DNA of 64,000 nt. Origin: Anaerolineales bacterium (GTDB taxonomy: Bacteria; Chloroflexota; Anaerolineae; Anaerolineales; Villigracilaceae). Of the stretch, positions 40,644 through 60,573 are shown one piece after another. Under the pieces are notes generated by a model. That model searched no databases. It had not been told where the DNA came from and saw nothing but the letters and a program-made list of their open reading frames with translations. The stretch is taken from the NCBI GenBank assembly GCA_014379595.1, contig JACMLM010000040.1:62001-126000 (forward strand), given 5' to 3'. A program made the translations under genes and the position numbers. The first letter of the stretch is position 1; each line of letters starts with the position of its first letter.

Positions 40644-40722
40644 TTTATTCATCATATAACAGATACTCCCCAGCCACATCATGTAACTGGGGAGTATCCT
40701 TCTCCGCCACTTGGGGGATACT
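40644..40722 (-). repeat. Two-hairpin element, copy A
   Basis: Stem 1 is perfect: GATACTCCCCAG (40662-40673) with CTGGGGAGTATC (40687-40698). Next to it on the + strand is CTCCGCCACTTGGGGGA (40702-40718). The 7-mer AGTATCC (40693-40699) can alternatively pair with GGATACT (40716-40722), giving a mutually exclusive fold. On the minus strand the tail reads GTTATATGATGAATA. It lies 25 nt after the CPBP stop and about 37 nt before the 40-residue membrane protein gene. Copies B (58115-58173) and C (60494-60573) share loop, second stem and tail. Confidence 0.75.
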
Positions 40723-40746
40723 GGTTTAGCTGGGCAGGGAAATCAA

Positions 40747-41559
40747 TTAGGTGCTGGCGACCTGCTCTCTATCATTTGTAGATAAGTTTTTCGGCTTGAA
40801 AAATAGGATTGTTAGAATTCCCCACACTGTTATTAAAAATCCCATGTAGTTAATTACGTTAATACCAGCAAGGTCGGCTGTAAAAGCAATATCAATCGTT
40901 GAATGAAAAACTGCGCAGATAAAAATGCTCGCCTTGGATGAGTTATATAACCAGGTCAATAAAATGCTCCCTGTCAGTAAGCTAAACACCCAGCCCATAA
41001 TTCCAGCGATACCCATTGTTGTATACCCGGGTCTGTAAAAGAATAACGGTATATGCCATAATGCCCAAAAAACGGTTAAGATCAAACTTGCATTCAATGC
41101 ATTAAATTTGTTTTGAAGCCGGGGTAATGCGAAACCGCGCCAGCCTACTTCCTCTCCGAAGCCAAAAAATATCACGTTGTAAATGAAAAAGGTCAGCAGG
41201 TTGAATTGAGGAAACTCTTTGGCTCTTAATAGTCCTGCCAGATCAATCGGGGTCTTATCGATGAAGTAGCTCATGACGACTGCAATAACAGCAAGGATAA
41301 ATGGGCTGAATAAAGCCACAGCTAAATAGATCAAAGGTTTAAGTTGAAGGCATTTTGCCAATAGGTTCTTAACGCCTTCCTTCTTTAAGAAAATCCAGGT
41401 TGTCAGGAAGGATGCAATCAAAGGGCCAAGCCCGCCGAGAGCGTGATGATAGGGCAATGCTGGTAAATGAGGCAACCCTAACGCCTCGCCATATAAAGGC
41501 AGCCAGATTATCCATGAGATTAAGTATGCAAGTCCGAAATATATAAGTAATTGTTTCAT
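40747..41559 (-). CDS. CPBP intramembrane metalloprotease
   Basis: This is a 270-residue membrane protein with about seven segments. The Abi/CPBP active-site motifs are complete: GEEVGWRGFALPRLQ (E-E-x3-R), FWALWHIPLFF and CAVFHSTIDIAF (His-containing motifs 2 and 3). Relatives are CAAX prenyl endopeptidase-like or bacteriocin self-immunity proteins; the substrate is unknown. ATG 41559 is preceded by GAAAGGAAGACC. It is followed on the same strand by the repeated element copy A. Confidence 0.9.
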   Translation of the reverse strand: MKQLLIYFGLAYLISWIIWLPLYGEALGLPHLPALPYHHALGGLGPLIASFLTTWIFLKKEGVKNLLAKCLQLKPLIYLAVALFSPFILAVIAVVMSYFIDKTPIDLAGLLRAKEFPQFNLLTFFIYNVIFFGFGEEVGWRGFALPRLQNKFNALNASLILTVFWALWHIPLFFYRPGYTTMGIAGIMGWVFSLLTGSILLTWLYNSSKASIFICAVFHSTIDIAFTADLAGINVINYMGFLITVWGILTILFFKPKNLSTNDREQVAST

Positions 41560-41609
41560 GGTCTTCCTTTCTTGTTAAAGGTTAATTGCGAGCTTTTTAG
41601 TCAAACCTC

Positions 41610-43544
41610 TTATAAATCGCTGATAACTTTCGGCGGAAATGCTGCTCGCAAAGCATTAAGCACGGCAAAAACATCAATGACTTCCTGAGTTATGGCACCT
41701 CCAACAGGAGTCAGGTGACCGGTCGCCGCGAACAACATTCCAGCGACACTCAGAAACATCCCGCCTACCGCACTTTGCAGAGCGATAGAGCGCATCCGAC
41801 GACTGATGTGCATAAACTCGTCCACTTTTTCCAACGAATTATCCATGATCACGACACCTGCCGCTTCGGTCGTCACGTCGCTGTTTTGTCCGATGGCCAT
41901 ACCAACAGTTGCAGCCATCATCGCTGGAGCGTCGTTGATACCGTCACCGACGTATAGCGTTTTGGCGCGCACGGTTTCCTGTCGCACAATCTCTAGTTTC
42001 TCTTCGGGGCTTTTCTGTGCTTGAATCTCTGTGATGCCTACTTGCTCCGCCAGGTAACGTACTTCAGACTCGCGATCTCCCGAAACAATCATGATGCGTT
42101 GGAATTGATGTTTTGGGACAAGATGCTTTACGAATGAGCGACTGTCATCGCGCGGCGCATCTCGAAAGCGGAACGTTGCCGCGTAGCGATTATCGATGGC
42201 GACAACACATTCCAATCCACCTGCCACAGGCGGAAGTTCGTCGGCGCCTGCAATGTTTTGTGCGATGAGACTGGCGCGACTTGTAACGAGTACTTGCTGA
42301 CCGGAAATCGTGCCTCTCAATCCCTGACCAGGCTGTTCACTGACTTCTTCAGATTGCGACAACTTTATGCCGGTTTCTTTTGCTGCACTTAAAATAGCAC
42401 GCGCCAACGGATGTTTAGAATATGTCTCCAGGCTGGCTACCAATGTGAGTGCTTGTTTTTGGTTGAACCCAGATGCAACAATCTGTTCAGTCAGCTTCGG
42501 TTCTCCATAAGTCAGCGTACCAGTTTTGTCGAAAATCGCAGTGCGGCATTCTGCGATCTGTTCCAACACAACCGGACTTTTCACAATAATGGCGCGGCGC
42601 GCACAAAGCGAAATTGAACCGATTATGGCGATTGGAATCGCGATGAGTAAAGGGCATGGCGTGGCGATAACCAAAACCGCCAAGAAACGAATTGGGTCGC
42701 CGCTGATGATCCATGCAAGAACCGCCAAGACCAGCGCGACCGGCGTGTAAATCGCACCTAACTTGTCGCCTAAGCGTCTCAACTGTGGCCGTTTTTGTTC
42801 AGACTCGTGCATCACCTCCATAATTTTTGCGTAGCGCGAATCGGCAGCACGTTTAGTGACGCGAATCGTTAGTACCGATTCGCCGTTGATCGCCCCAGAA
42901 ATCACAGTAGAGCCAGAGGTTTTTGAAATTTGAAATGGTTCGCCTGTAAGATACGATTCGTCCATCACACCGTGACCATCTATTACCACCCCGTCAACTG
43001 GACAAATGTCATGAGGATAAATCACCAACATGTCATTTACAACAACTTCATTTAGTGAGATATCTTCAATTGCCACGTCGTGTTTACGATGCGCCACCGA
43101 AGGCATTCGTTTGGCAAGAGCCGCCAGTACAGAAGATGCACTTCGCAATGCATAATTTTCTAACGCTTCACCACCCGCTAACATCAAGACTACAATTGCA
43201 CCTGCTAGGTACTCATTCAATATCAACGATGTAACAATGGAAATACCAGCCAGCAAATCAGAGCCGAACTCCCGCTTGAAGAGCTTTACCAACAATTCGT
43301 ACACCAGTGGGATGCCGCCGAAAATAAATGTTGCCAGCAAAGGAATCTGCGAGATTTCAGTGCCCTGACCCAACCCAAATCGGAGCAACAAATGTAGAAG
43401 AATAGATGCAACGGAAAAAATTGCGATGAAGGTGGTTCGGCGTCGCCAAACGGAAGCTAGAGACTCCTGAAACCATCCACCTGGTGATTGGTGTCGTAAT
43501 TTTGGTATAGCGGACGAGGGCACGTGTTTTATTTTATTTTTCAA
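41610..43544 (-). CDS. P1B-type heavy-metal ATPase
   Basis: This is a 644-residue transporter. It has TGEP ([13 protein letters not shown]), the phosphorylation site [12 protein letters not shown], the P1B-specific [10 protein letters not shown] and the hinge [15 protein letters not shown]. The metal-site helix reads [16 protein letters not shown]: Cys-Pro-Leu rather than Cys-Pro-Cys, so Cu+ or Zn2+ preference cannot be assigned. There is no N-terminal HMA or Cys-rich metal-binding domain; the first ~45 residues are basic. It probably exports a divalent transition metal. Confidence 0.92.
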
Positions 43545-43622
43545 TTCTTTCCATCAGGTATCTGTGGAATAGGGAAATCCATGGTTGAATAATTTATTCT
43601 TAAGTTTTATCTGCCAACTTTA

Positions 43623-44525
43623 CTATGGATGGGAAGTTACCTCAATTGAAAGTAAGGTACCTTTCGGACTGGTTTCAACATTTTTGAGCAACACTACCAC
43701 CATTATCAGGTTCAACAAAGTGATGATCAGAAATGGAATCATAAGCTCAAGTCCATCAGCCACACCCACACGCGCCATATTGATACCCATCGCACTTACG
43801 GCTAGCCCCAGTGTGACGCCTTTTGTTAGCATAATCGAGCTTAAAAGATAGCCCCAAGCATTGCGACGCAGTAAAAGAATCCCTCCAAGAAATGCTAGTG
43901 GGATGATTAGTCCTAAATCCATAAACTGGATGATCAGAGTGGTGGCGTTTTCTAGGACTGGCGTCTCATTTTGAAATAGTGGTGGAACAATGCGTCCAAG
44001 CCACGCCAACGAGAGAAAACCACCCACCAGAAACATCAATGCGACAATCCATTTGCGCGGTAGTTGCTCGGAAAAGGATTGTGGCAGGGTTTTCAAGTCG
44101 AAGGACATGATGCTTAAGATAAATGCATATAGGCTCAATCCAAATATAGCCACGTATACCAGGAATAACGAATTGTAAGATGCCAGGCTTGCCATAGACA
44201 TGTAGGTATATAGAAAGAAGCCAAGCGTACCTGTCAAAAGCAGGCGTCCGCGTAAGGAACCACGAAACGCAAGCCAGGTTGAGATTACTAATAGTGGAAG
44301 TCCTATCACCAGGGTAATTAGGTCATTCCCATGCATCTGTGCAACATAACTAACAGTGTCGTAATAATACAACCCCTGCCCATTGATCATGACCGATTCG
44401 CCGCGATGATTGGTGTAAGGATATGGTTCGCCAGAAGTTTGGTAGAAGAGACCTGCACTGGCAGCAATCAGAGATAGAATGCCGATCAGCGGGATAAGCC
44501 ATTTAAGAGTAGAATGATTTTTCAT
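43623..44525 (-). CDS. Multi-pass membrane protein of unknown function
   Basis: This is a 300-residue membrane protein with about eight hydrophobic segments. The first is followed by an extracytoplasmic loop TSGEPYPYTNHRGESVMING and YYYDTVSYVAQMHGNDL. Other marked stretches are SFSEQLPRKWIVALMFLVGG and GVADGLELMIPFLIITLLN. I recognise no named family. A decayed copy of its C-terminus is present at 47861-47975, showing local duplication. It lies between the heavy-metal ATPase and a lipase-like gene. Confidence 0.75.
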   Translation of the reverse strand: MKNHSTLKWLIPLIGILSLIAASAGLFYQTSGEPYPYTNHRGESVMINGQGLYYYDTVSYVAQMHGNDLITLVIGLPLLVISTWLAFRGSLRGRLLLTGTLGFFLYTYMSMASLASYNSLFLVYVAIFGLSLYAFILSIMSFDLKTLPQSFSEQLPRKWIVALMFLVGGFLSLAWLGRIVPPLFQNETPVLENATTLIIQFMDLGLIIPLAFLGGILLLRRNAWGYLLSSIMLTKGVTLGLAVSAMGINMARVGVADGLELMIPFLIITLLNLIMVVVLLKNVETSPKGTLLSIEVTSHP

Positions 44526-44588
44526 TTTTTTCCTATTGTTTCTTTCGGTTGTTAAGAGATGTCATAATTTTTCATATCACGCAGTGGA

Positions 44589-46082
44589 TTAAGGCCGGCG
44601 TGTTTCGAAGAGTATTTCCGAAAATTGCTCTACGGGCCCATTGAGCAGTGCTCCTGCTTGACCTTTTAAGTGTCGGTTGAAGAACGCCAGCGAATACGCG
44701 TTGATAATGTCGTGCGCTCGCTGGCTGCCGATCGGCCCGCTGAAGCCAATTGTTGGAAAAATCGGTGATAGAAGGTCTAGGTCTGTCAAATCGATGTGGA
44801 ACATTCCAGGAACCTGCACGAAGTAACCATCTCCAGGCAAACTGTTATACACCGCGCGCATGGTGGACTGGGTTTGCTCGATATCCTTCTCTGTCCAGCC
44901 GCCAGTCTTTTTTCTTTCAAGTCGCATTGTGTTGGCGGGACGGGTAATGAACATTGTTGGCTGCTGTAAGCCCTTCTGAACCACATCAGCGGTTATAGCA
45001 ACGTCCTCGATCAGGCAGGCCTTGATGCGTGGATCTTTCAAGCAGGCCTCAGCGCCAACGATACCGCCGAATGAAACTCCAAACAAACCAGTATGATGCA
45101 AGTCCAATCTCCCCGTCAGGATACTTTTCGGATCAGTAGTATTTATCACAGCTAGCTGATCGAGCGTGAAGCTGACATCCTGCGCAAAATACGAAATGAT
45201 ACCGTCCTTGAATATCTGACCGTTCAGAAGAGGTAATATTTCTGATGGGCTAACGCTCTGTTGCGTCAGAGGATCCATCTGAGTTTTTGACAGCCCCGCA
45301 ATTTGATGTCCGTCCGGGAAAACCACCGATGCAGCAACACCTGGCTGATCAATGCCCACAACGATGTAACCATACGATACCAGTTCCTCAACTTGGAATG
45401 TGTTCATCTGACGATAGCCAGTTAGCCCTTCTAGAAAGATGAGCACTGGGTAGTTGGGCATGTTATCCGCGATGGGTGCAGATGAGATGGTGTTCGTGGT
45501 GAAGTACTTGAGGTGTTTTAAGGAGAAATCTGGAAAATTGTGCAATTGCGCCAGAGCCGTCGTAATAGCGTCGGAATCTTGTATATATGGTGCATATGGG
45601 GAAGATGACTCTTTCCTTGCTGGATACCAGATTTGCACCATGAGCTCACGACGAGCACTCGGATCGGCGCTGAAAACCTCTGGACGATCAGCATCCACCC
45701 AATGGTAGGTCAACGTGCCAATATCGTATGGCCCGCTTGGATGTGGGAAGCGAAAAACGGGAAGTATAATCGGTAAAATGATGGAAACAATCAGCACGAG
45801 CGCGCTCAGCCCGATGGCAAGATGCTTGACCAATATCTGCCCACTGGTCCCATCCAATGGCATGATGTTCTGCAACAGCCAAACTAGGAAAGAGAACCCA
45901 GCCAGTGCGTACGCCGGAACCATTTGCCAGCGTGGACTCTCTATCAGTATCTGCGCGACAGCTATCAGCAGAGCGAGAGGCGCCAAATAACGCATCCAGA
46001 ACACTGCGCGGGGTAATGGAATCGCTAATGCGAAGAATGTTAGTAGATTTGTCAGTGACAACAGAGCTTCAATGGGTCTCAT
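44589..46082 (-). CDS. PAF-acetylhydrolase-like alpha/beta hydrolase with membrane N-terminus
   Basis: This is a 497-residue protein. Four membrane segments fill residues 1-115, then an alpha/beta-hydrolase domain with strand VLIFLEGLTGYRQMN, nucleophile elbow LFGVSFGGIVGAEACL (Ser about residue 335), ACLIEDVAI after it and late His in VPGMFHIDLTDLDLLSP. The dispositions of FLEG and GVSFGG match platelet-activating-factor acetylhydrolase/dienelactone-type enzymes, which hydrolyse short acyl esters. The start overlaps the upstream CPBP gene by 4 nt (ATGA). Confidence 0.87.
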   Translation of the reverse strand: MRPIEALLSLTNLLTFFALAIPLPRAVFWMRYLAPLALLIAVAQILIESPRWQMVPAYALAGFSFLVWLLQNIMPLDGTSGQILVKHLAIGLSALVLIVSIILPIILPVFRFPHPSGPYDIGTLTYHWVDADRPEVFSADPSARRELMVQIWYPARKESSSPYAPYIQDSDAITTALAQLHNFPDFSLKHLKYFTTNTISSAPIADNMPNYPVLIFLEGLTGYRQMNTFQVEELVSYGYIVVGIDQPGVAASVVFPDGHQIAGLSKTQMDPLTQQSVSPSEILPLLNGQIFKDGIISYFAQDVSFTLDQLAVINTTDPKSILTGRLDLHHTGLFGVSFGGIVGAEACLKDPRIKACLIEDVAITADVVQKGLQQPTMFITRPANTMRLERKKTGGWTEKDIEQTQSTMRAVYNSLPGDGYFVQVPGMFHIDLTDLDLLSPIFPTIGFSGPIGSQRAHDIINAYSLAFFNRHLKGQAGALLNGPVEQFSEILFETRRP

Positions 46083-46960: not shown

Positions 46961-47010
46961 CGTTTTGTTTTCTCCTGATTAATAATTCTAGCCATCCACT
47001 GCAAGTGATG

Positions 47011-47826: not shown

Positions 47827-47860
47827 AGAATATCCTTTCTGAAAGGGATGAGCTAAGCAT

Positions 47861-48021: not shown

Positions 48022-50691
48022 CTATTCCAGGCTAACTTTTCGCTTCATCCATTTGACTAATTCCATGACGGGGAAAATCGTGGATGAAAAACCAAGAATG
48101 ATTAACCAATCTAGTAGTGGAAGGCTAAAAGTATTGAATGGTTCATGCATTGCAGGCACGTATACAATGAACAGCATCAGTGCGATTTCAGCGAGTATTG
48201 ATATATTCAGCCACTTATTTGCAAAGGGGCTTTGAAATACTGATCTCTGGTAGGAACGGAAGTTATAAGCATTGAAAAACTGAATCAACACCAACGACAT
48301 AAAGGTCATTGTTGTCGCCTCTGCCTGGCTGCGCCCAGAGTTCATGGCCCAGATAAAAAGCCCTAGGTTGATGAGTGTTGACCATAATCCGCCTACCAGC
48401 ATTAGTGCGACAACAGGACGAGTGAAAATGCCAGTCCGTGGGTCGCGCGGTTTGCGCTTCATCAAATCTTTTTCCGCCGGGTCCACAGCCAGTGCAAGAG
48501 CGGGTAGACCATCTGTTGCGAGATTCACATACAGGATTTGAACTGCTGTGAGGGGTAGGGGTAGCCCCAGCAAAGTGGCACCCACCATCAGCCCTATTTC
48601 GCCAATGTTTGTGGAGAGCAGGTACATCAGATATTTCTTGATGTTTTCAAATACTCCACGCCCTTCCTCCACCGCAGCGACAATCGAAGCGAAGTTATCA
48701 TCTGTCAGCATCATCGCAGCGGCTTCTTTTGTTACGTCAGTGCCGGTGATGCCCATCGCGATTCCAATATCAGATTTCTTAAGTGATGGAGCATCGTTGA
48801 TGCCATCACCTGTCATTGCTACAATGTGACCATTGGCTTGCAAAGCAGTAACCACGCGCAGTTTATGCGCTGGAGATACGCGCGCGTAAACATCAATCGT
48901 TTCGACCTCTCGCTGAAACTGCTCGTCTGCCATTGCATCTAATTCTGCACCAGTTACAACGCGTCCAGTTTTAAGCAAACCCAATTCCTGCGCTACCGCA
49001 TACGCGGTCACGGGATGGTCGCCCGTAATCATCACAGCTCGAATTCCTGATTGTTCGCAAATTTCAATCGCTCTTTTAACTTCCGGGCGCGGTGGATCAA
49101 TCATGCCTGCCAGCCCCAAAAAGATCATTTCGCTTTGTGCTGTTTCAAGTGTGACATTTGCTTTCGAAGAAACCGCCAGTACACGCAATGCATCGCTCGC
49201 CATCTCATGGGCTAATGCCAATGCATGTTTTCGTCCCACATCATCGAGTGGCTTTAATCCATCGGTAGTCAGCTGCCAGTTGCAACTGTCTAAAATCATC
49301 TCGGGTGCACCCTTGGCATACGCTGTCAGACTCCCATCTACTTGATGCAAAGTCGTCATGCGTTTTGTTTCAGATGAGAATGGAATTTCAAAGGCGCGGG
49401 GATACTCCAACTCAAGCGGCTCTTTCTGCAGCCCAGCCTTTGCCGCAGCGACCAACAACGCCCCTTCGGTTGGGTCTCCTTGAATATTCCATTTAGCACC
49501 CAGTTCATTTTCTGTTTCAGAAACCAGTCGTGTATCCGATGCCAGCGTCGCAGCGGTCAGCAGTTTTTGCAACTCAGTTGTTGGCATGGTTAGCGTACTG
49601 TCGTTGAGGGAAAAATCCCCGATTGGGGAGTATCCTGTTCCCGAAACGTTAAACATCTGTCCGGCAACAAACAGTTTTCGTACGGTCATTTCATCTTTGG
49701 TGAGTGTACCGGTCTTATCCGAACAAATAACCGATGTGGATCCCAGCGTTTCTACTGCAGGCAGGCGACGGATAAGTGCGTGGCGCTTCGCCATCTTTTG
49801 CACTCCTATCGCCAGCGAAATGGTAACAACGGCAGGCAGGGCTTCTGGTACAACCGCTACTGCCAACGCAATGCCAAAGATGAGCATATCGACGAAGGGC
49901 TGTCCGCGTATCAACCCAAGCACAACAATGACGATCACCACCACAAAAGCCCCGCCTGCCAGTGTTGTGCCTATCTTATCCAAATTTTTTTGGAGTGGTG
50001 TTTTGCCGGTTTCGACTGTTTGTAAGAGTTGAGCAATCTTACCGAACTCGGTTTGCATTGCAGTGTTAACCACTAGTGCCTTGCCGCGTCCATAGGTGAC
50101 GGCAGTGCCAGCGTAGGCCATATTTTTTCGGTCGCCAACTGGTAAGTCATCACCGCTGAGCTGCTGGTTGTGCTTCTCCACTGGCAGCGATTCGCCGGTC
50201 AGGGCCGCTTCCTCGATTTGTAGATTCACTGCTTCAAGCAAACGTGCATCAGCGGGTATACGATCACCAGTGCGTAAGATGATGATATCTCCCGGCACCA
50301 ATGATTGCGCCGGAACTTCGACTTCCACGCCATTACGCAAAACAGAGGCGGTAGGCGCTGCCATTTCCCGTAGTGCTTCAATAGCATGTTCCGCGCGATA
50401 TTCCTGGATAAAACCCAGTAGAACTGAGAACAGAATAATCACCGCAATAGCGATAGACTCGATACCATGTCCTAAAAATAGCGAAATGACAGTTGCAACA
50501 AGCAAAATCAGAGTTAGTATATTTTTGAATTGTCCCAGCAAAATTTTCCAGGGCGAAATAGATTTTGCTGCCCGAATTTCATTTGCGCCGTATTCCAAAG
50601 CACGTTTGACAGCCTCCGTCTGGCTCAAGCCAGTGGGTTGGCTTTTGATTTCGAAAATGGCTTGTTCTGTTGTTTGAGTGTGCCAGAGCAT
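48022..50691 (-). CDS. P2-type cation ATPase (Ca2+-ATPase-like)
   Basis: This is an 889-residue P-type ATPase with N-terminal cation ATPase domain, TGES in EEAALTGESLPVEKHNQ, phosphorylation site VICSDKTGTLTKDEMTVRK, nucleotide-binding region with KGAPEMILDSC, hinge [20 protein letters not shown] and a C-terminal six-helix bundle. Helix 4 shows VVPEALPAVVTISLAIG, the PEGLP-like Ca2+ or Na+ site written PEALP. It is probably Ca2+ or Mn2+ export. The length is typical of bacterial SERCA/PMR1-like pumps. It is monocistronic. Confidence 0.93.
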   Translation of the reverse strand: MLWHTQTTEQAIFEIKSQPTGLSQTEAVKRALEYGANEIRAAKSISPWKILLGQFKNILTLILLVATVISLFLGHGIESIAIAVIILFSVLLGFIQEYRAEHAIEALREMAAPTASVLRNGVEVEVPAQSLVPGDIIILRTGDRIPADARLLEAVNLQIEEAALTGESLPVEKHNQQLSGDDLPVGDRKNMAYAGTAVTYGRGKALVVNTAMQTEFGKIAQLLQTVETGKTPLQKNLDKIGTTLAGGAFVVVIVIVVLGLIRGQPFVDMLIFGIALAVAVVPEALPAVVTISLAIGVQKMAKRHALIRRLPAVETLGSTSVICSDKTGTLTKDEMTVRKLFVAGQMFNVSGTGYSPIGDFSLNDSTLTMPTTELQKLLTAATLASDTRLVSETENELGAKWNIQGDPTEGALLVAAAKAGLQKEPLELEYPRAFEIPFSSETKRMTTLHQVDGSLTAYAKGAPEMILDSCNWQLTTDGLKPLDDVGRKHALALAHEMASDALRVLAVSSKANVTLETAQSEMIFLGLAGMIDPPRPEVKRAIEICEQSGIRAVMITGDHPVTAYAVAQELGLLKTGRVVTGAELDAMADEQFQREVETIDVYARVSPAHKLRVVTALQANGHIVAMTGDGINDAPSLKKSDIGIAMGITGTDVTKEAAAMMLTDDNFASIVAAVEEGRGVFENIKKYLMYLLSTNIGEIGLMVGATLLGLPLPLTAVQILYVNLATDGLPALALAVDPAEKDLMKRKPRDPRTGIFTRPVVALMLVGGLWSTLINLGLFIWAMNSGRSQAEATTMTFMSLVLIQFFNAYNFRSYQRSVFQSPFANKWLNISILAEIALMLFIVYVPAMHEPFNTFSLPLLDWLIILGFSSTIFPVMELVKWMKRKVSLE

Positions 50692-50723
50692 GTACTGTCC
50701 TTAAATTAAGGCGTGTATTGCTA

Positions 50724-53266: not shown

Positions 53267-53330
53267 TGTTTATCTCCTGTGAACAAGATTTGGATATGGA
53301 CTACGGAAAGATTCGTTTGATCAGAACCTT

Positions 53331-54551: not shown

Positions 54552-54562
54552 GTGTTCTCCTT

Positions 54563-54582
54563 GTTGGGCTAAAGAGCCCAAC
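54563..54582 (-). promoter_or_regulatory. Hairpin just upstream of the nirK ribosome site
   Basis: GTTGGGCT (54563-54570) and AGCCCAAC (54575-54582) form an 8-bp stem with a GAAA-type loop region. It lies directly before AAGGAG in the minus-strand leader, so it could modulate ribosome access. Confidence 0.45.
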
Positions 54583-54609
54583 GAACAAATAATAGGGGTT
54601 TTGTCAAAT

Positions 54610-54625
54610 TGTGATAATTTTCACA
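54610..54625 (-). promoter_or_regulatory. CRP/FNR-family operator upstream of nirK
   Basis: TGTGATAATTTTCACA is a perfect TGTGA-N6-TCACA palindrome, 59 nt upstream of the nirK start. It is the core recognised by CRP/FNR/DNR-type regulators, which commonly control denitrification genes in response to oxygen or nitric oxide. Confidence 0.65.
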
Positions 54626-54706
54626 TAGTTGCAGCATCTTGTCAAGTTTGCTATTGGCCATTCAATTTCACAACTGGCATCGAACTATGTTGAAAAGCAA
54701 TATCCC

Positions 54707-56017
54707 CTATAGATAATGCAATTCCTTTGCCTGCTTTTCTAAATCACGACGGAAATCAGGGTGAGCAATATTGATCAGTTGCTGTGTGCGCTGACGTATG
54801 GATTTGCCATATAGGTCAGCCGCTCCGTATTCTGTCACAACATAGCGCACGTGGTTGCGGCTGGTGACTACACCCGCACCTTGCTTAAGCATCGCCGCAA
54901 TTCGTGTAATGGCCGTTCCGTCTTTCAATATGGCCGTACTAGGCAGTGCAATGATCGGCACACCGCCTTTTGAACGTGAGGCACCGTACATAAAATCAAG
55001 TTGCCCACCTACGCCGCTATAGAGTTTTGGGCCAATGCTATCGGCGCAGACCTGCCCTGTAAGATCAATTTCAATCGCGGAGTTGATCGCAACCATGCGC
55101 TCATTCTGAGCGATCACAAACGGGTCGTTGACGTATTCTGTGAGGTGTAATTCAATCAGTGGATTATTATCGACCCAATCGTAAAGTTCCTGCGTGCCCA
55201 GGATGAAACCCGCAATGATCTTTCCAGGATGCAAAGTTTTACGCGCATTGGTCAATACGCCTGCATTCACCAGTTCGATCACACCATCTGAAAAAAGTTC
55301 ACTGTGAATACCGAGATCTTTCTTATGATGTAAAAATTTCAAGACCGCATTTGGAATCGCGCCAATGCCCATCTGCATGGTGGCACCATTTGGAATCAGT
55401 TCTGCAATATGACCTGCAATTTTCTCAGTGACTTCCGATCTGCCTTCCCCCGCCATATGGACTTCGGGAATGGGGTAATCAACTGGAATAATGTAATTCA
55501 ATCTGCTGACATGGATGAACGAATCACCAAGCGTGCGCGGCATTTGCTGATTGACTTCGGCGATAATGATCTTCGCCGATTCAGCCGCCGATTTTGTGAG
55601 ACCCACTTCCACCCCGAAACTGCAATAGCCATGTTCATCGGGCGGTGAAACATGAATAAGCGCCACATCCAGAGGCAGGAAACCATTCTTAAACAACAAA
55701 GGAAATTCCGAAAGCAGGATGGGGGTAAAATCTGCACGACCTGCTTGAACTGCTGCCCGAATATTTGCACTGATGAACATGGAATTAACACGCAAGTGCC
55801 CTTCCATTTCAGGCTTCACGTAATCAGCTGCCCCAATACTCAACACCTGACAGATCTCCACGTCATTAAGATTTGGAGCATAATCCACTAGAGCAGCGAG
55901 AACTTTTTGAGGCACAGATACATTCCCGCTGAGAAAGATGCGATTCCCCGATTTAATAAATAACACTGCTTGCTGCGGCGTTACGATATGTGATTGATAA
56001 GCATATGTCCAGTTCAT
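54707..56017 (-). CDS. Acetyl-CoA hydrolase / 4-hydroxybutyrate CoA-transferase family
   Basis: This is a 436-residue CoA-transferase of the Cat1/ACH family. N-terminal VTPQQAVLFIKSGNRIFLSG and the middle region LIPNGATMQMGIGAIPNAVL, then GIHSELFSDGVIELVNAGVL with the family SE-x-FSDG-x-x-L motif, followed by VRYVVTEYGAADLYGKSIRQ, all fit. It transfers or cleaves CoA on acetate, butyrate, succinate or 4-hydroxybutyrate; the active-site Glu is expected in the GIHSEL segment. It is unlinked to nirK by function as far as can be seen. Confidence 0.92.
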   Translation of the reverse strand: MNWTYAYQSHIVTPQQAVLFIKSGNRIFLSGNVSVPQKVLAALVDYAPNLNDVEICQVLSIGAADYVKPEMEGHLRVNSMFISANIRAAVQAGRADFTPILLSEFPLLFKNGFLPLDVALIHVSPPDEHGYCSFGVEVGLTKSAAESAKIIIAEVNQQMPRTLGDSFIHVSRLNYIIPVDYPIPEVHMAGEGRSEVTEKIAGHIAELIPNGATMQMGIGAIPNAVLKFLHHKKDLGIHSELFSDGVIELVNAGVLTNARKTLHPGKIIAGFILGTQELYDWVDNNPLIELHLTEYVNDPFVIAQNERMVAINSAIEIDLTGQVCADSIGPKLYSGVGGQLDFMYGASRSKGGVPIIALPSTAILKDGTAITRIAAMLKQGAGVVTSRNHVRYVVTEYGAADLYGKSIRQRTQQLINIAHPDFRRDLEKQAKELHYL

Positions 56018-56069
56018 GCAACAGCCTTATAGCATTCATGCATGATCAGGATATTATGCAAGATAGTAT

Positions 56070-56441
56070 TCACTTCAAAAAATGTTCTCGAACTTTGGCC
56101 GACACCTGGCCATCGGTCATTTTGTCTGCAGCTTCAATGGTGACAGGTGTTTTGATTCCTTCGTGTTCAATTCGTTTTTCCAATTCGCCTTTTGCCTCAC
56201 CTGGCCCAAATATCTGAACGGATGTCGCATCACGGATATAAGCGATCACTTCGTCATAGAAAGAATTGAGATGGTTATCAAATTGTCGATCTCGCGTATC
56301 TTCCCCGCGGCCATCTTCACTTGTAAAGCGAACATGCTTTTCCATATTTGAATTTATTGTCTTTATTTCTTCATCCCCATCTTTGATGGTCACGATCACT
56401 GCCTTTCTATGATCGATCCACAAACCGATTTCTTTTTTCAC
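56070..56441 (-). CDS. Conserved protein with WIDHRKA motif
   Basis: This is a 123-residue soluble protein: KEIGLWIDHRKAVIVTIKDG, HLNSFYDEVIAYIRDA, VQIFGPGEAKGELEKRIEHE and a C-terminal KVREHFLK. The order WIDh.kA...., FGPGEAK resembles bacterial eRF1/archaeal-release-factor-like small domains (baeRF type); this is a weak call. Such proteins may act on stalled ribosomes or tRNA. It begins with AAGGAGAACATCG upstream and opens the stress-type cluster. Confidence 0.75.
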   Translation of the reverse strand: MKKEIGLWIDHRKAVIVTIKDGDEEIKTINSNMEKHVRFTSEDGRGEDTRDRQFDNHLNSFYDEVIAYIRDATSVQIFGPGEAKGELEKRIEHEGIKTPVTIEAADKMTDGQVSAKVREHFLK

Positions 56442-56500
56442 GATGTTCTCCTTATTGAAATAATTTCTACCTGGTGTTATTTAAATGGTTCTTAGCAATG

Positions 56501-56620
56501 TCACTTGAGCAATATTTTTCTTTGATTTTGAAAACTGACGAGCCTGCCATATATAAACACGAGCGGATAGGCTAGCAGGGTCAGCAAATCCATAATGATA
56601 AAGATCAGATTCAGTTTCAA
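56501..56620 (-). CDS. 39-residue membrane protein, paralogue of 40485-40607
   Basis: This is a short open frame from TTG 56618-56620 to TGA 56501-56503, with TGAGGAAAAATTACA upstream of the start. The protein reads MKLNLIFIIMDLLTLLAYPL and then VFIYGRLVSFQNQRKILLK: one transmembrane helix and a basic tail. It aligns without gaps to the 40-residue protein at 40485 over the first 30 residues, with about two thirds identity. It lies 59 nt before the gene at 56070 on the same strand. No known family is recognised. Confidence 0.72.
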   Translation of the reverse strand: MKLNLIFIIMDLLTLLAYPLVFIYGRLVSFQNQRKILLK

Positions 56621-56663
56621 TGTAATTTTTCCTCAGTAGTAGCTTTTGCTCGGCGTTGCTTAT

Positions 56664-56903
56664 TTAATGTACTCCAGTTACGCCCACCCTTTCTTGTTTA
56701 AAGAATATTAGACCTGGCGAATAAATTAAATTTGCAATGGCAGTTAATAGCATTACAGGAAACAATAATATTAATAAAATAAATGCAAGACCAAAGTCAA
56801 TAATGCGCTTGACAGTGTAATAGGCGACCCTGCTTTCCGATACCCTGAGCAAAGCATTTGGGTCGTATTCCCGGGTCGAGTTAAAACTAGCTTCATTTTG
56901 CAT
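56664..56903 (-). CDS. N-terminal fragment of a bacterial sugar transferase
   Basis: This 79-residue frame contains the membrane anchor and first helix of the undecaprenyl-phosphate sugar-transferase family: VKRIIDFGLAFILLILLFPV, then SPGLIFFKQERVGVTG. In intact proteins of 190 residues or more this is followed by 'k.F.vyKFRSM' and the catalytic part. Here TAA follows VTGVH. The missing C-terminus means no phosphosugar transfer. It may be a truncated remnant or a small membrane protein reusing the anchor. The start has CAGGAGATATCAACC. Confidence 0.7.
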   Translation of the reverse strand: MQNEASFNSTREYDPNALLRVSESRVAYYTVKRIIDFGLAFILLILLFPVMLLTAIANLIYSPGLIFFKQERVGVTGVH

Positions 56904-56956
56904 GGTTGATATCTCCTGCCTGCCGGCTAATTTTTCTTAAAGTGAGAAGCTAATAT

Positions 56957-57004
56957 AAGAAAAAATGCCAGCCGCACTCGCGAGAACGCAAGATTGGCTG
57001 GCAT
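56957..57004 (-). terminator. Intrinsic terminator after the HU gene
   Basis: On the minus strand ATGCCAGCC (57004-56996) and GGCTGGCAT (56973-56965) form the stem with a 22-nt loop, followed by TTTTTTCTT. Confidence 0.8.
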
Positions 57005-57008
57005 AAAC

Positions 57009-57317
57009 TTATATGGCATCTTTCAATGCTTTAAGAGGTCTCACCTTTATCACCCTGCGTGCTGCTTTTGCCTTAAAAGTCATCGGCTCCTTGGTGAAAG
57101 GGTTGACACCTTCGTGCTGGCGAGTAGCAGGTTTGTCAACGACATTCAGTTTAAGCAAGCCGGGTATGAGAACTTCGCCTGGCCCTCGTTTGCTGAGTTG
57201 TTGGGCAACCATTGCGTTGATCGTATCAAGCGCTGTGGAAGCTTGCTTCTTATTGAGACCGCTTTTCTCTGCCAGGGTAGTGACAAACTGGGATTTGCTC
57301 ATTTTTTTGTTAGGCAT
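57009..57317 (-). CDS. HU-family DNA-binding protein
   Basis: This is a 102-residue nucleoid protein. It has the HU N-terminus MSKSQFVTTLAEKSGLNKKQ, the DNA-clasp arm RQHEGVNPFTKEPMTFKAKA and the basic end RRVIKVRPLKALKDAI. The arm keeps the intercalating Pro (N-P-F-T). It differs slightly from standard HU by MPNKKM at the start and a longer C-terminus. It bends DNA and helps compaction; the location suggests a stress-induced copy. It has its own terminator. Confidence 0.93.
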   Translation of the reverse strand: MPNKKMSKSQFVTTLAEKSGLNKKQASTALDTINAMVAQQLSKRGPGEVLIPGLLKLNVVDKPATRQHEGVNPFTKEPMTFKAKAARRVIKVRPLKALKDAI

Positions 57318-57344
57318 CTCATACTCACTTTTGACTATAATTTT

Positions 57345-57782
57345 TTACTTTCCGTTGGACTGCGAAATTTCTTTAACCATTTCAGCAGTTTTTTCCGGGT
57401 GATTACCATCTATTGCTACATCTGCCTGGGCAATAATCCCAACGATTTTGTTATCATTGTCCACGATGGGAATACGGCGTAATTGATTCTCAGACATGGC
57501 TTTCAGCGCTTTCTCGAAATCATCGTCAGCGCGGCAGGTTACTACCTTACTTGTCATTACTGCATCCACTTTTGTTGATTTTGCATCAAGCCCTGCAGCG
57601 ACGATCTTCAAAGTGAGATCGCGATCGGTCACAATACCAACCAATTTTTTGTTTTGCTCGTTTTCAATCACCGGTATGGAACCAATGTCATTGCTTCTCA
57701 TCAACTCTGCCGCTTTTGCCGCCATATCATTTGGCAGACAGCAAACCGGGTCTTTCGTCATGACATCATTGCATTTCTTCAT
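57345..57782 (-). CDS. Two-CBS-domain protein
   Basis: This is a 145-residue protein made of a CBS pair: CNDVMTKDPVCCLPNDMAAK at the start, IPVIENEQNKKLVGIVTDRD, then VDAVMTSKVVTCRADDDFEK and RIPIVDNDNKIVGIIAQADV. CBS pairs bind AMP, ATP or SAM and report energy status; many stand-alone ones are stress regulators. No other domain is fused. The start has AAAGGAGAATATTT. It is 28 nt upstream of HU on the same strand. Confidence 0.93.
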   Translation of the reverse strand: MKKCNDVMTKDPVCCLPNDMAAKAAELMRSNDIGSIPVIENEQNKKLVGIVTDRDLTLKIVAAGLDAKSTKVDAVMTSKVVTCRADDDFEKALKAMSENQLRRIPIVDNDNKIVGIIAQADVAIDGNHPEKTAEMVKEISQSNGK

Positions 57783-57851
57783 AAATATTCTCCTTTAAGG
57801 CTGTGATACTTACACTTACGCACTTGCGTCATATTAAATAATAAGCTTTTT

Positions 57852-57913
57852 AAAAAGTTAGGAGCCAGATCAAATTTCCCGCTTTGTTAATTATGCAGCG
57901 CTCCTAACTTTTT
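57852..57913 (-). terminator. Long-loop inverted repeat behind the 19-residue gene
   Basis: AAAAAGTTAGGAGC (57852-57865) pairs perfectly with GCTCCTAACTTTTT (57900-57913) over a 34-nt loop. On the minus strand it begins 4 nt after TAA 57917-57919 and ends with TTTTT. It is probably a terminator. Confidence 0.65.
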
Positions 57914-57916
57914 GCT

Positions 57917-57976
57917 TTATCGCAAGTAACCAATTAAAAACAGTACTATCAGAACGATAACAACGGTATATAACAT
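57917..57976 (-). CDS. 19-residue membrane peptide
   Basis: ATG 57974-57976 to TAA 57917-57919 encodes MLYTVVIVLIVLFLIGYLR, a single hydrophobic helix. A strong GAAAGGAGATTTCCA ribosome site is correctly spaced and a hairpin follows the stop. Such peptides resemble shortened DUF3309/lmo0937-like proteins. The 57783-58201 stretch holds this gene, the hairpin at 57852 and element B, and otherwise nothing I recognise. Confidence 0.55.
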   Translation of the reverse strand: MLYTVVIVLIVLFLIGYLR

Positions 57977-58114
57977 TGGAAATCTCCTTTCTATTTGTTA
58001 TGTATATAGAGATGCGAATCTACATCATCATCCCCAGTAGATTTAAAATAACGATGAGCAGGTAAGAATACGATTTATCGCTTTTGAGCGATTGCTCTAT
58101 CTTTATCTTACAGT

Positions 58115-58173
58115 AAACGCTTCCCAGCCGCATCCATCGGCTGGGGAGTGTTTAACTCAGCCACTTGGGGGAG
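58115..58173 (-). repeat. Two-hairpin element, copy B
   Basis: AAACGCTTCCCAGCCG (58115-58130) pairs with CGGCTGGGGAGTGTTT (58138-58153) over 16 bp including two wobble pairs. The adjacent CTCAGCCACTTGGGGGAG (58156-58173) forms stem 2. On the minus strand the loop is ATGGATG and the tail ACTGTAAGATAAAGA. It starts 29 nt after the stop of the 50-residue protein at 58202. Confidence 0.7.
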
Positions 58174-58201
58174 GTAAAAGAGAGTAAAACGTAGTGCAAC
58201 C

Positions 58202-58354
58202 CTATGAGATAAATTTAATCATGATCATAGCAACGATAAGGACGGATAATATATAAATAAAACCGCCTGTGTGCAGAATACCAGGTAAGATTGACTGACC
58301 GAAAAAACCAAGCAACCAATACATGGTTAAGACCAAGATCATTAACTCAAACAT
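58202..58354 (-). CDS. 50-residue DUF5670/lmo0937-like membrane protein
   Basis: This is a short open frame, ATG 58352-58354 to TAG 58202-58204. It encodes two hydrophobic helices around the loop: MYWLLGFFGQSILPGILHTG then GFIYILSVLIVAMIMIKFIS. The order LLG-F...GG-FI-IL-V--IV---I matches DUF5670/lmo0937 proteins, small membrane proteins tied to stress responses. The ribosome site is weak (GCAGG); a stronger AAGGAGG sits further upstream inside a hairpin (arms GAAGC/GCTTC). Copy B of the two-hairpin element follows. Confidence 0.65.
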   Translation of the reverse strand: MFELMILVLTMYWLLGFFGQSILPGILHTGGFIYILSVLIVAMIMIKFIS

Positions 58355-58416
58355 GCAACCTGCTTATGAAGCACAGCCTCCTTATAGGAAGCAGAGCTTC
58401 ATGTAAGAGATTAGGG

Positions 58417-58566
58417 CTAGCGGTTGATTATGAACAGAATGCCGGCAATCAGTGCACAAATACCTGCAATAATGCTCAATACTCCACCAAGACCTACACC
58501 CAGCAAACCCAGGCCCGTGATGATCAGAAAGATGCCGAGCAAGACCCATTTCAATCTATCATTCAT
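58417..58566 (-). CDS. 49-residue membrane protein
   Basis: This is a short open frame from ATG 58564-58566 to TAG 58417-58419, preceded by AAAGGAGAATCAAA. The protein starts MNDRLKWVLLGIFLIITGLG and has two membrane helices separated by GVGLGGVLS, ending in AGILFIINR. The Gly-rich turn resembles small stress membrane proteins, but I do not recognise a family. It lies 62 nt before the DUF5670-like gene in the same orientation. Confidence 0.65.
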   Translation of the reverse strand: MNDRLKWVLLGIFLIITGLGLLGVGLGGVLSIIAGICALIAGILFIINR

Positions 58567-58629
58567 TTTGATTCTCCTTTTTAATACCAATTTTGTTTAT
58601 GCATTACTTTATTTATTAACGTATTTGGT

Positions 58630-59043
58630 TTATCGAGTGTTATGATGCTCGCTAGTACTGGTTTCGGTAACAGCTACTACTGGTCCGCGTGGGCGGTAAA
58701 AGATCAACCACACTGTTCTTTCCACAACCCATGCGATCAGACCATAGATCAGCATGGCAAACATGGAAGAAAGCTCAAGGACCATAGCGCCGGATGAGGG
58801 CGAGCCGATCAAACCTGTGAATGGAAATAGGAAGATGGTGGTAATTCCATAGATCAACGCCACGATCGGGCTGCCCGGGTTGGCACCGATCAGCATCAAG
58901 GCGATACGCAGTGCGATCAGGGCTTCAAGAATGCCGAATAACAGCCAGACCAATTGAGTGGCTTTAAACGTGAAGATACGCTGTTCGCGTTCCGGTTCAT
59001 TTTGTGACGTTCTAACTTCTGATACTCTATTGTCGTTTGACAT
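58630..59043 (-). CDS. YggT-family membrane protein
   Basis: This is a 137-residue protein with three hydrophobic helices; the N-terminal 30 residues are polar. The YggT hallmark is ALMLIGANPGSPIVALIYGI followed by FLFPFTGLIGSP. YggT proteins are linked to osmotic and cell-envelope stability. ATG 59041-59043 has AGAGGAGTAAAA; the open frame upstream of it runs through the neighbouring hairpin. A near-perfect hairpin separates it from the GlsB gene. Confidence 0.82.
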   Translation of the reverse strand: MSNDNRVSEVRTSQNEPEREQRIFTFKATQLVWLLFGILEALIALRIALMLIGANPGSPIVALIYGITTIFLFPFTGLIGSPSSGAMVLELSSMFAMLIYGLIAWVVERTVWLIFYRPRGPVVAVTETSTSEHHNTR

Positions 59044-59059
59044 TTTTACTCCTCTTTTT

Positions 59060-59092
59060 AAACATGGCTCTCTTATTAAGAGAGCCATGTTT
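59060..59092. terminator. Perfect 15-bp hairpin between GlsB-type and YggT-type genes
   Basis: AAACATGGCTCTCTT (59060-59074) pairs with AAGAGAGCCATGTTT (59078-59092), loop ATT. It is T-flanked on the + side (TTTTC) and lies 32 nt after the GlsB-type stop. Confidence 0.7.
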
Positions 59093-59123
59093 TCTAGTTG
59101 TTGAACTGTACCTTGTTAAACTA

Positions 59124-59378
59124 TTAGCGGCGAACCTGCTTGTAGAGCCAGATTAGAATGACGGAGCCAAGCAGTGTGACGAGCAGGGTTGGGATGGTGA
59201 TGGCATCGTTTATCGTTCCAATACCTAACAGAGGGCTGATGAAAAACCCAGCCAGGAACGCGCCAATGACACCGACGACGATATCGAGCAGCGTGCCTTG
59301 TTGTGAATTTGTATTCATGATGCGGCTGGCGACATAACCGACAATTGCTCCAGCAATGAGATAGATGATAAGGTTCAT
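59124..59378 (-). CDS. GlsB/YeaQ/YmgE-family membrane protein
   Basis: This is an 84-residue protein with three hydrophobic helices and Gly-rich turns: IYLIAGAIVGYVASRIMN, LLDIVVGVIGAFLAGFFISP and LGSVILIWLYKQVRR. This is the transglycosylase-associated family induced in stationary phase. The helix packing G-A-I-V-G and G-V-I-G-A are diagnostic. It follows CsbD by 64 nt on the same strand. Confidence 0.92.
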   Translation of the reverse strand: MNLIIYLIAGAIVGYVASRIMNTNSQQGTLLDIVVGVIGAFLAGFFISPLLGIGTINDAITIPTLLVTLLGSVILIWLYKQVRR

Positions 59379-59442
59379 TTTTTATTTTCCTTTTTGAATA
59401 ATATAAATACGCGGCTATCAGTGTTCACTTAGTGAACTGGAC

Positions 59443-59682
59443 TTATTTAGGTGTGGCAGGTTTGGTTTCACCTTTCAGGCGATCTTCAAACTCTGTCACA
59501 CGTTTGTCGATCTCCTCTGTTGCTTGTTGACGGGTATAGCCATATTTTTCCTGAATAATGCCTGTCAACACATCGTACTTGCCCGCGGCACGCTCGAGAT
59601 CATCATCGGTGAGCTTGCCCCACCATGCCTTGGCCTCGCCCCGCATTTGTTTCCACTTACCTTCCATTACGTCTTTGTTCAT
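59443..59682 (-). CDS. CsbD-family stress protein
   Basis: This is a 79-residue hydrophilic protein: MNKDVMEGKWKQMRGEAKAW and WGKLTDDDLERAAGKYDVLT, continuing QEKYGYTRQQATEEIDKRV. The tandem G-K-W-K-Q-M and L-T-D-D-D-L segments are the CsbD signature. CsbD is a general-stress protein in Bacillus (SigB regulon); its mechanism is unknown. It lies between the DUF5661 and GlsB genes. Confidence 0.95.
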   Translation of the reverse strand: MNKDVMEGKWKQMRGEAKAWWGKLTDDDLERAAGKYDVLTGIIQEKYGYTRQQATEEIDKRVTEFEDRLKGETKPATPK

Positions 59683-59719
59683 GTTTTGATCCTCCAGATC
59701 ATTTGAAAAAGGTTTACTT

Positions 59720-60016
59720 TTATACGGGCGCTTGTGTTCGTTTCATGCGCCTGTTTTTATACTTATTGACTTCTGCCCTCAGTCTTGCCAGCCGGATGAC
59801 ATAATCTGGGAATTGCTGCATGTGAGCTAGAACAAGCCTTCCGGTAAGAAGCACACCATCATAGATCAATCTCGTGTCCGAATTCAGGGTTGCCTTCTTC
59901 CGGTGTCCCATTAATCCCTGGCGGAATTGCTCGAGGTCAACCTGCTCCCAATCAATATAAAGGGAGTCGCCGATACACTTGGCTTCCTTTGTGCTGATCT
60001 GTTTTTGATTTTTCAT
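59720..60016 (-). CDS. DUF5661 protein (diverged copy)
   Basis: This is a 98-residue protein with QISTKEAKCIGDSLYIDWEQ and DLEQFRQGLMGHRKKATLN, then LLTGRLVLAHMQQFPDYVIR and a basic Lys/Arg-rich end that replaces the acidic tail of the 51789 copy. The acidic 'VELEHG' of the other two copies becomes MGHRKKA, so charge is reversed. It lies upstream of CsbD on the same strand. Confidence 0.8.
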   Translation of the reverse strand: MKNQKQISTKEAKCIGDSLYIDWEQVDLEQFRQGLMGHRKKATLNSDTRLIYDGVLLTGRLVLAHMQQFPDYVIRLARLRAEVNKYKNRRMKRTQAPV

Positions 60017-60121
60017 GAGCCGATCCTCCGTATTTTTTCAGAGAAGCGATGGGTACTTCGTAAATTAGGAAGGCAGAATTATTATTTTATTGATCCAGAC
60101 TACATCAACCAGCGACGTCAT

Positions 60122-60493
60122 TTAATATATTGAAACCTTCGATGCAACAGTTCGCAAGTGTTCAGCCACACGCTCCGGCGTTTCACCTTTACTGATAAAT
60201 GCATCAGCGCCAGCGGAGAGGGCTGCTTGTTGACGGGCATCCAACGGGCTGATAAGCACAATAACCAGTGCAGACGGGCAAGCCACGCGAAGTTCTGCCA
60301 GAGCCGCACTAGGCGTACTGGGAAGTACATCCCAATCAATCAATAATATGTCTGAACGGCTGGTTGGCACCTCAGCAAATGTAGTGGCCCAGTCGGTTCC
60401 TTCCCCGGCAATTTCCATTTGCAGGTCTAGCAGTAGTAGGCGAAGTGCAGAACGCTCTTCACGTTTCGCATCGGCAATGTATACGCGTGTCAT
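60122..60493 (-). CDS. Receiver-only response regulator
   Basis: This is a 123-residue receiver domain. It has VYIADAKREERSALRLLLLD at the start, the acceptor region ILLIDWDVLPS (Asp about 53-55), and AGADAFISKGETPERV with the Lys of the signalling switch. The first acidic pair is reduced to A-D. No output domain is fused. Copy C of the two-hairpin element lies directly upstream; its conserved tail ends at the start codon, suggesting leader-level control. Confidence 0.82.
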   Translation of the reverse strand: MTRVYIADAKREERSALRLLLLDLQMEIAGEGTDWATTFAEVPTSRSDILLIDWDVLPSTPSAALAELRVACPSALVIVLISPLDARQQAALSAGADAFISKGETPERVAEHLRTVASKVSIY

Positions 60494-60573
60494 GTATTCA
60501 TCCTACAATAGATACTCCCCAAGCACATCCTGCGCTTGGGGAGTATTGTTCTCCGTCACTTGGGGGAGAACCA
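60494..60573 (-). repeat. Two-hairpin element, copy C
   Basis: Stem 1 is ATACTCCCCAAGC (60512-60524) with GCTTGGGGAGTAT (60534-60546). Stem 2 is GTTCTCC (60548-60554) with GGAGAAC (60565-60571), loop GTCACTTGGG. On the minus strand the order is stem 2, stem 1, then the tail ATTGTAGGATGAATAC running into ATG 60493. The element begins 25 nt after the stop of the gene at 60598. Confidence 0.75.

Follow-up and report, generated by a model that had tools for sequence, protein, structure and literature searches.

A repeated two-hairpin intergenic element occurs three times, each time on the minus strand, in the window analysed here (a 64-kb stretch, positions 62001-126000 of contig C44 of an Anaerolineales genome, G000, which comprises 4.47 Mb in 72 contigs). 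Its most likely role is that of a control switch in the DNA, not of a regulatory RNA. From comparison of its copies across genomes, we think it probable that the element represents the promoter-operator family of a two-component stress regulon of Anaerolineales, with a response regulator binding the first of its two dyads. The operator-promoter of a two-component system is already known as a kind. As far as searched, this element family, its regulon and its palindrome are undescribed, and among the matches listed from the open-access literature no paper dealt with the element or with a two-component stress regulon in Anaerolineales. A preliminary description had located the three copies and offered a regulatory RNA leader, a 3'-end structure or a protein operator as their function. 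All three copies were present when their limits were set by our model R1; the earlier limits of copies A and C were only a few bases off, and those of copy B (58115-58173) fell 18 bases short on the 3' side. The copies and their parts in the window are as follows.

40643-40720, minus strand: copy A of the putative promoter element, 78 positions (87.8 bits, model R1)
40701-40720, minus strand: first dyad of copy A (positions 1-20), proposed response-regulator site (alignment)
40659-40701, minus strand: second inverted repeat of copy A (positions 20-62; fold, inverted-repeat scan and covariation in 221 copies)
40651-40656, minus strand: putative -10 box TATGAT of copy A (positions 65-70; TANNAT profile), predicted +1 at 40644
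58097-58174, minus strand: copy B of the putative promoter element (86.8 bits, model R1)
58155-58174, minus strand: first dyad of copy B (alignment)
58105-58110, minus strand: putative -10 box TAAGAT of copy B (alignment and profile), predicted +1 at 58098
60492-60569, minus strand: copy C of the putative promoter element (86.4 bits, model R1)
60550-60569, minus strand: first dyad of copy C (alignment)
60500-60505, minus strand: putative -10 box TAGGAT of copy C, predicted +1 at 60493, the A of a start codon

With up to three mismatches allowed, the 16-base core CCCCCAAGTGRCKGAG matched the window three times, all perfectly. Shuffled sequence gave a mean of 0.94 such matches and reached three in 6 of 100 shuffles; the likeness of the copies extends past the core, across about 75 aligned positions. 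Two further copies lie beyond the window on the same contig and strand (C44:126095-126172 and 135586-135663), and the whole genome gave 13 matches at E<1e-10 to a model built from 11 of its own copies, three of them being those of the window. Among 61 genomes, G000 included, 27 carried the element at E 0.01 or better, and several held 4-9 copies on one strand within 6-20 kb. A scan of named genomes with the exact pattern returned 75 stretches, 74 labelled as Anaerolineae or other Chloroflexota and one as Bacteroidetes. We obtained 292 model matches, from which one that was unaligned and six shorter than 60 nt were dropped; merging of 38 exact duplicates among the remaining 285 left 247 distinct copies, mostly from Anaerolineales. 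Weak matches (E up to 1e-4) were kept and slightly dilute the statistics; two of them, one in G039 (L145), where it follows a dnaK-like gene, and one in G040 (L143), resemble ordinary terminators. Column statistics refer to the 221 copies of exactly 78 nt, the other 26 being excluded.

Conservation starts sharply at position 1-2 and ends near position 74; it is absent from the 40 bases that precede the element. The 76-nt block consists of the 20-bp dyad TCTCCCCCAAGTGGCGGAGA at positions 1-20, a CTCCCC box together with GATGGATG, which is conserved, and in most cases a right arm in mirror image, and a near-invariant TANNAT. The second inverted repeat occupies positions 20-36 and 46-62 around GATGGATGC. 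TANNAT at positions 65-70 showed frequencies of 0.99 for T, 1.0 for A, 0.93 for A and 0.99 for T in the 161 copies with a leader, and of the 184 copies in which GGATG and TANNAT were both identified, 171 had them at a distance of 25 bases. If +1 lies seven bases after TANNAT, the dyad is centred at about -66 and CTCCCC at about -47, while GGATG spans -37 to -33 and TANNAT spans -12 to -7.

The two dyads differ in how their symmetry is kept. The first showed no covariation above chance in the 221 copies (pair 4-17, for example, was complementary in 0.90 of them, with 0.89 expected); it is a conserved sequence and not a covarying stem, because its pairing matches the expectation from column frequencies. 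The top five values of mutual information after average product correction (APC) all fell on the diagonal of the second stem (25-57, 26-56, 35-47, 28-54 and 23-59), and three further pairs of this stem were within the top 30. The stem covariation claimed in the preliminary description thus holds for the second stem and not for the first. A perfect palindrome is not required: 53 of the 221 copies have nine or fewer of the 17 second-stem pairs and keep most of the rest. In these 53 copies the right arm held 0.43 bits per position, the dyad 1.53, GATGGATG 1.41 and the left arm, which is partly kept, 0.96. In some copies (L124/L276:4759-4801 and similar) the palindrome is perfect enough for the model to match both strands.

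The element is a 5' element, because the downstream gene was co-directional in 231 of 233 copies; in 149 of these it lay 0-119 nt past position 77. The upstream gene was divergent in 17 of 237 copies. Since the copies track the downstream gene in this manner, the option of a 3'-end structure is not favoured. Gene starts were taken from a home-made scorer of open reading frames (ORFs) rather than from a standard gene caller. The predicted start codon stood exactly at position 77, the putative +1, in 25 of 186 scored copies, 24 of which precede one family of single-domain receivers and the other a single lipoprotein gene. According to the available part of PMC3160421, a TA-like signal (TANNNT) about 12 bp before the start marks leaderless bacterial genes, Chloroflexi included. 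The promoters proposed here resemble these TA-led promoters in the TANNNT about 12 bp before the start codon, but their box sits in a repeated element and essentially one downstream family is predicted to be leaderless. Among 739 other genes of the element loci, TANNAT was commonest at offset 12 (12 genes, with 10 or fewer at any other offset). As in a sigma-70 promoter, a TANNNT -10 box was found at a fixed distance from the start sites, which are predicted ones. No promoter-like site with a TTGACA-like -35 box 16-18 nt upstream was called at the three window copies; its absence is expected, because the promoter is proposed to be activator-dependent.

In several genomes the run of copies begins right behind the genes for a PAS-GAF-HisKA_3 histidine kinase and a NarL/LuxR-type response regulator (HK-RR). 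In G000 this pair occupies C44:135672-137884, of which 135672-136316 is the regulator; here the regulator stop codon and the start of the first element are 5 nt apart. Kinase orthologs (E<1e-160) were detected in 14 of the 61 genomes, all 14 with the element; at E 1e-60 four more genomes gave partial matches only, 35-51% identical. When 301 genomes of the order were searched, the kinase (E to 1e-100) was found in 30. All 30 belonged to the 42 genomes with an element (E to 1e-5), and the 259 element-free genomes gave no kinase at this threshold (Fisher 6e-32, not corrected for relatedness). Of the 42 site-bearing genomes, 30 thus contain the cognate HK-RR expected for a two-component operator and 12 show no kinase at the threshold, the element being present in 30/30 kinase genomes. 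Counted from coordinates, the distance from the kinase gene to the start of the element equals the length of a regulator gene (about 650-760 nt) in 26 of these 30. This count includes G051, for which the match was weak, and G181 and G309, where the kinase was matched only in part; in the remaining four (G064, G204, G240 and G296) there were contig ends or longer gaps. In a set of 400 genomes of the phylum, the element (E to 1e-6) was found in nine and the kinase in eight. There, only the element was found in G625 and G037, and only the kinase (54% identity) in G658, which is from another order. The G658 locus was a prediction that held, since this kinase genome does carry the element in a copy missed at the threshold: a diverged copy (32.6 bits) containing CCCCCAACTGGCGGAT, ACTCCC, CCGATG and TACGAT lies 63 nt behind the regulator gene, the end of which was placed by eye.

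The connection between the first dyad and the regulator comes from comparison of regulator loci. The dyad was seen by eye within 100 nt behind the regulator gene of this type (RR1) in 12 of 18 genes, and behind three others (L080, L085 and L087) the element stood about 100 nt on. Paralogous regulators (RR2) were found in five loci, with 61-65% identity to the regulator in the four that were measured; the fifth is that of G625. Behind the RR2 genes we detected CTCCCC, GATG, a GGGGAG-like sequence and mostly a TA-box-like tail, with the first dyad replaced by CTGGTCAAGTGACCAG or a relative of it. The paralog dyads share the CAAGTG core with the first dyad. With up to three mismatches allowed, 40 RR1-type dyads were present in 12 of 12 scanned RR1 loci, and none in the five RR2 loci or in 13 loci of other regulators; eight RR2-type dyads were present in five of five RR2 loci and none in the 13 others. 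It is mainly because of this comparison, partly circular as it is, that we assign the first dyad to the regulator as its putative site and the rest of the element to the promoter. At L142, L261, L264 and L278 the RR2 dyad overlaps with the regulator's own stop codon, and some bases thus belong both to the site and to the sequence encoding the C-terminus. A third regulator clade, with the helix SLGTVKFH[IV]SNIF, is followed by CTRTCCANNNGGCTAGGTAAAKAC in L268, L269, L272 and L274 and by eye may have a third operator type.

Genes downstream of the element were recurrent. Of 222 downstream proteins, 184 fell into 26 families, which were named from Pfam matches of representatives or window members. 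The largest family was that of receivers (35 proteins); others were PAS-GGDEF-type proteins (27), 50-aa Lmo0937/DUF5670 membrane proteins (23) and dodecins (12). Further families were formed by lipoproteins, DUF3597 (7), universal stress (6), CBS (4), KaiC-like (3, by eye) and GlsB/YeaQ-like (3) proteins. The short dyad thus stands before a recurrent gene set, as an operator of a two-component system should. This agrees with the expectation of the preliminary description that a model search across relatives would place conserved copies with a covarying stem upstream of related stress genes, the covariation being confined to the second stem.

We propose that a signal would lead the kinase to phosphorylate the NarL/LuxR-type regulator, and that the phosphorylated regulator would bind the first dyad and recruit RNA polymerase to a promoter that has no TTGACA -35 box. 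Genes for receiver, PAS-GGDEF, CsbD, dodecin, universal-stress, GlsB-type, CBS and small membrane proteins would be switched on. The second palindrome may act at the DNA level or may stay symmetrical through template-switch mutation. It could be a terminator of the upstream unit, a cruciform or a site for a second protein, or it could arise as a by-product when templates are switched.

The pairing in the second stem bears on the choice between RNA and DNA. An RNA helix tolerates G-U far better than A-C. In 109 copies, non-redundant at 80%, the observed/expected ratio was 1.18 for Watson-Crick pairs, 0.77 for G.T, 0.84 for A.C and 0.77 for other mismatches. The mismatch pattern was similar in copies within 60 nt of the upstream stop codon, in those further away and in divergent ones. 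Given the general expectation for RNA, the stem does not appear to be maintained as RNA, because G.T was no better tolerated than A.C; the pair-poor copies together with the Watson-Crick-only covariation indicate that the right arm is optional and the symmetry a matter of the DNA. A cis-regulatory RNA leader, i.e. a riboswitch or protein-binding RNA in the 5' untranslated region of stress genes with the stem read in the RNA, would account for the very stable folds of several copies (z to -7.4), for the covariation of the second stem (eight diagonal pairs among the 30 highest APC scores) and for the position of the copies 5' of genes. We nevertheless regard it as improbable. Besides the depletion of G.T, the 40 nt before position 1 hold no conserved promoter, TANNAT lies inside the tail and so puts the stem upstream of +1, and most members of one family have their ATG at the predicted +1. 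As the preliminary description had noted, no riboswitch class was matched: no Rfam family reached the gathering score in the window, and four copy-bearing loci gave sub-threshold matches only. The pairing of AGTATCC in copy A, read earlier as a possible switch, uses non-conserved bases upstream of position 1 and was treated as chance. The GGATG of the loop has some resemblance to a CsrA site; this reading, for which no search was made, was set aside. Of the three functions proposed earlier, the protein operator is the one that the evidence favours, as far as sequence can tell.

Somewhat less improbable than an RNA leader, though still unlikely, is a boundary element in which the second hairpin is the intrinsic terminator of the upstream unit, fused to the promoter of the next. 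In its favour, a run of 7-8 T comes after the hairpin in two RR2 loci (L261 and L278), and the stem is fuller in tandem copies, with 12.2 of its 17 pairs against 10.7 in divergent ones (p 0.036), and fullest after response-regulator genes (13.8 pairs, 16 copies). However, T runs of at least five were present in only 11 of the 221 copies, no terminator was called at the three window copies, and G.T was not preferred, not even where a tandem copy lies within 60 nt of a stop codon. The arms of the second palindrome cover -57 to -15, the -35/-10 spacer included, and are kept by Watson-Crick complementarity only, equally on the two strands and in tandem and divergent subsets alike. It is a rather doubtful idea, though one that could hold jointly with the regulator, that the palindrome is a functional DNA structure, a cruciform or hairpin that forms under negative supercoiling and gates promoter opening. 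Template switching in replication can yield compensatory changes of several bases in stem arms, as the accessible part of PMC8794818 describes. Such compensatory arm changes fit the Watson-Crick-only covariation found here; that paper shows them in RNA genes, and for the promoter palindrome this origin is only proposed.

The same promoter block might also be read by an alternative sigma factor or another regulator, with GGATG as the -35 box and the HK-RR pair as a passenger of the island. The fixed GGATG...TANNAT spacing is compatible with this, as are the six genomes that have good element matches and no kinase and the four of eight close regulator paralogs that have no such dyad. We consider this explanation about as doubtful as the supercoiling-gated structure, since the element is present in all 30 kinase genomes and is placed right behind the regulator gene, and five loci swap the dyad and keep CTCCCC and GATG. 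By far the least probable reading, one to which we give hardly any credence, is a mobile repeat (a repetitive extragenic palindrome, REP; a miniature inverted-repeat transposable element, MITE; or an IS200/IS605 end) or an attC-like site of gene-cassette recombination. The many copies in same-strand runs, the GGAG before the hairpin, presumably a resemblance to such repeats, and eight Y1-transposase matches in G000 could suggest it. These matches (PF01797; L018-L025) are apparently unrelated to the element. REP or transposon origin was dropped when CCCCCAAGTG, with one mismatch allowed, was not found in the eight Y1 loci, about 3.3 kb each. A gene-cassette array, to which the same-strand runs had first pointed, was dropped in view of the 17/237 divergent upstream genes and the recurrent content; attC core boxes, in the form presumed by us, were not seen by eye in the element. 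With the typed consensus, neither the 72,556 plasmid records nor the 50,697 phage records gave a match. The preliminary description had named random positions and a lack of covariation as marks of a passive repeat. Here gene content is recurrent rather than random, orientation follows the downstream gene, and the second stem covaries.

Several observations weigh against a promoter-operator family of a two-component system. If wobble is ignored, the covariation of the second stem is what an RNA would give. Twelve of the 42 element genomes have no kinase at the threshold; six of these (G040, G041, G043, G206, G238 and G258) have weak element matches only (E>5e-8), but in G036, G037, G101, G203, G224 and G235 the matches are good. 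Some of the latter six genomes are incomplete, and G037 (99%) and G224 (97%) are nearly complete. No element was found upstream of the HK-RR operon in L074, L079 and L088, i.e. autoregulation was not seen there. The regulator/dyad comparison is circular in that the RR2 group was formed after the dyad had been seen. Seven RR2-type dyads also occurred in four of the 12 RR1 loci (shuffled mean 0.7, maximum 4), and of eight paralogs 61-66% identical, four have the RR2 dyad and four do not (two in G048, one each in G059 and G049), L265 of G059 having the same helix without the dyad. Two copies have a convergent downstream gene (one at L078:6910-6987), one of the two being a weak, terminator-like match. 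Upstream proteins recur as well, somewhat less (146 of 205 in 29 families), which is expected because islands are shared.

The proposed two-component system resembles known ones in part. The closest solved response regulator was VraR (5hev, E 3.2e-47), and the kinase core matched DesK and VraS chains and a LiaS model. In contrast to VraSR/LiaSR, the kinase has an N-terminal PAS-GAF sensor and the targets are not envelope genes only. Among NCBIfam models of the kinase no equivalog passed its cut-off; the general PAS domain model alone did. The regulator also matched the solved DevR chain 3c3w (E 9.3e-38). The DosS kinase is of GAF-GAF architecture, unlike the PAS-GAF kinase here, and we know of no second palindrome in DosR/OsdR systems. 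DevR/DosR of Mycobacterium and OsdR of Streptomyces share with the present system a NarL/LuxR-type regulator with a histidine kinase, a short dyad operator, universal stress proteins as targets and stress genes clustered around the pair (PMC5069765, in its available part). The operator differs by eye, the OsdR consensus of that source being AGGGCCGATCGGCCCT vs TCTCCCCCAAGTGGCGGAGA here, and the OsdR/DosR consensus was not matched. In the accessible part of PMC10034137 no operator sequence was found.

The genes that follow the three copies in the window, and further genes of the island, are listed below.

40485-40607, minus strand: small ORF of 40 aa downstream of copy A, start at 40607, 35 nt past the copy
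39408-40433: gene downstream of copy A, after the small ORF
57917-57976, minus strand: 19-codon ORF preceded by a strong AAAGGAGA, candidate for the first gene in the copy B unit (by eye)
57345-57782, minus strand: CBS-domain gene after the 19-codon ORF in the copy B unit (CBS domains found)
60122-60493, minus strand: single-domain receiver protein, predicted leaderless, starting where copy C ends
59443-59682, minus strand: CsbD-like stress protein in the unit after copy C (PF05532, E 2.9e-15)
61530-64000, minus strand: PAS-GGDEF genes of the same island, the second running off the window

The receiver matched Response_reg at E 6.9e-6 and 26.6 bits, under the Pfam cut-off of 30.2, and the 40-aa ORF had no Pfam or NCBIfam match. 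It is related to an ORF at 56501-56620, both being hydrophobic and about 40 aa long (MKLNL.FI.MDLLTL.AYP). The preliminary description had correctly noted starts close behind copies A and C, that of the 40-codon ORF and the receiver start codon at 60493, and a gap of 25-29 nt after a stop codon; the gaps are 26, 27 and 28 nt (ORFs 40747-41559, 58202-58354 and 60598-61473, minus strand). Such a gap is not a rule of the family, being 5 nt behind several regulator genes and at least 100 nt in 65 copies. The ORF at 60598-61473 encodes a lipoprotein-like protein of repeated 'CHATGD..NPYEE' units, orthologs of which are among the element-controlled families in several genomes. Between the 19-codon ORF and the CBS gene lies a perfect, terminator-like 14-bp inverted repeat, AAAAAGTTAGGAGC..GCTCCTAACTTTTT, with its arms 34 nt apart (57852-57913). 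By eye, a 79-codon ORF at 56664-56903 resembles an N-terminal fragment of a sugar transferase and is perhaps a remnant, and two P-type ATPases lie within the stress island (41610-43544 and 48022-50691).

The finding carries a caution: strong hairpins with covariation in hundreds of copies could pass for a structured RNA, and here the count of G.T vs A.C points otherwise. If the palindrome is a functional DNA structure, it would define a class of promoters with a palindrome in the spacer, common to at least two paralogous two-component systems. The regulator/operator pairs of the two paralogous systems would make a specificity code testable. For Anaerolineales, which are widespread environmental bacteria but have been studied little, the result is what appears to be a stress regulon of their own, whose kinase-regulator pair, operator, promoter and targets can be listed directly from genome sequences.

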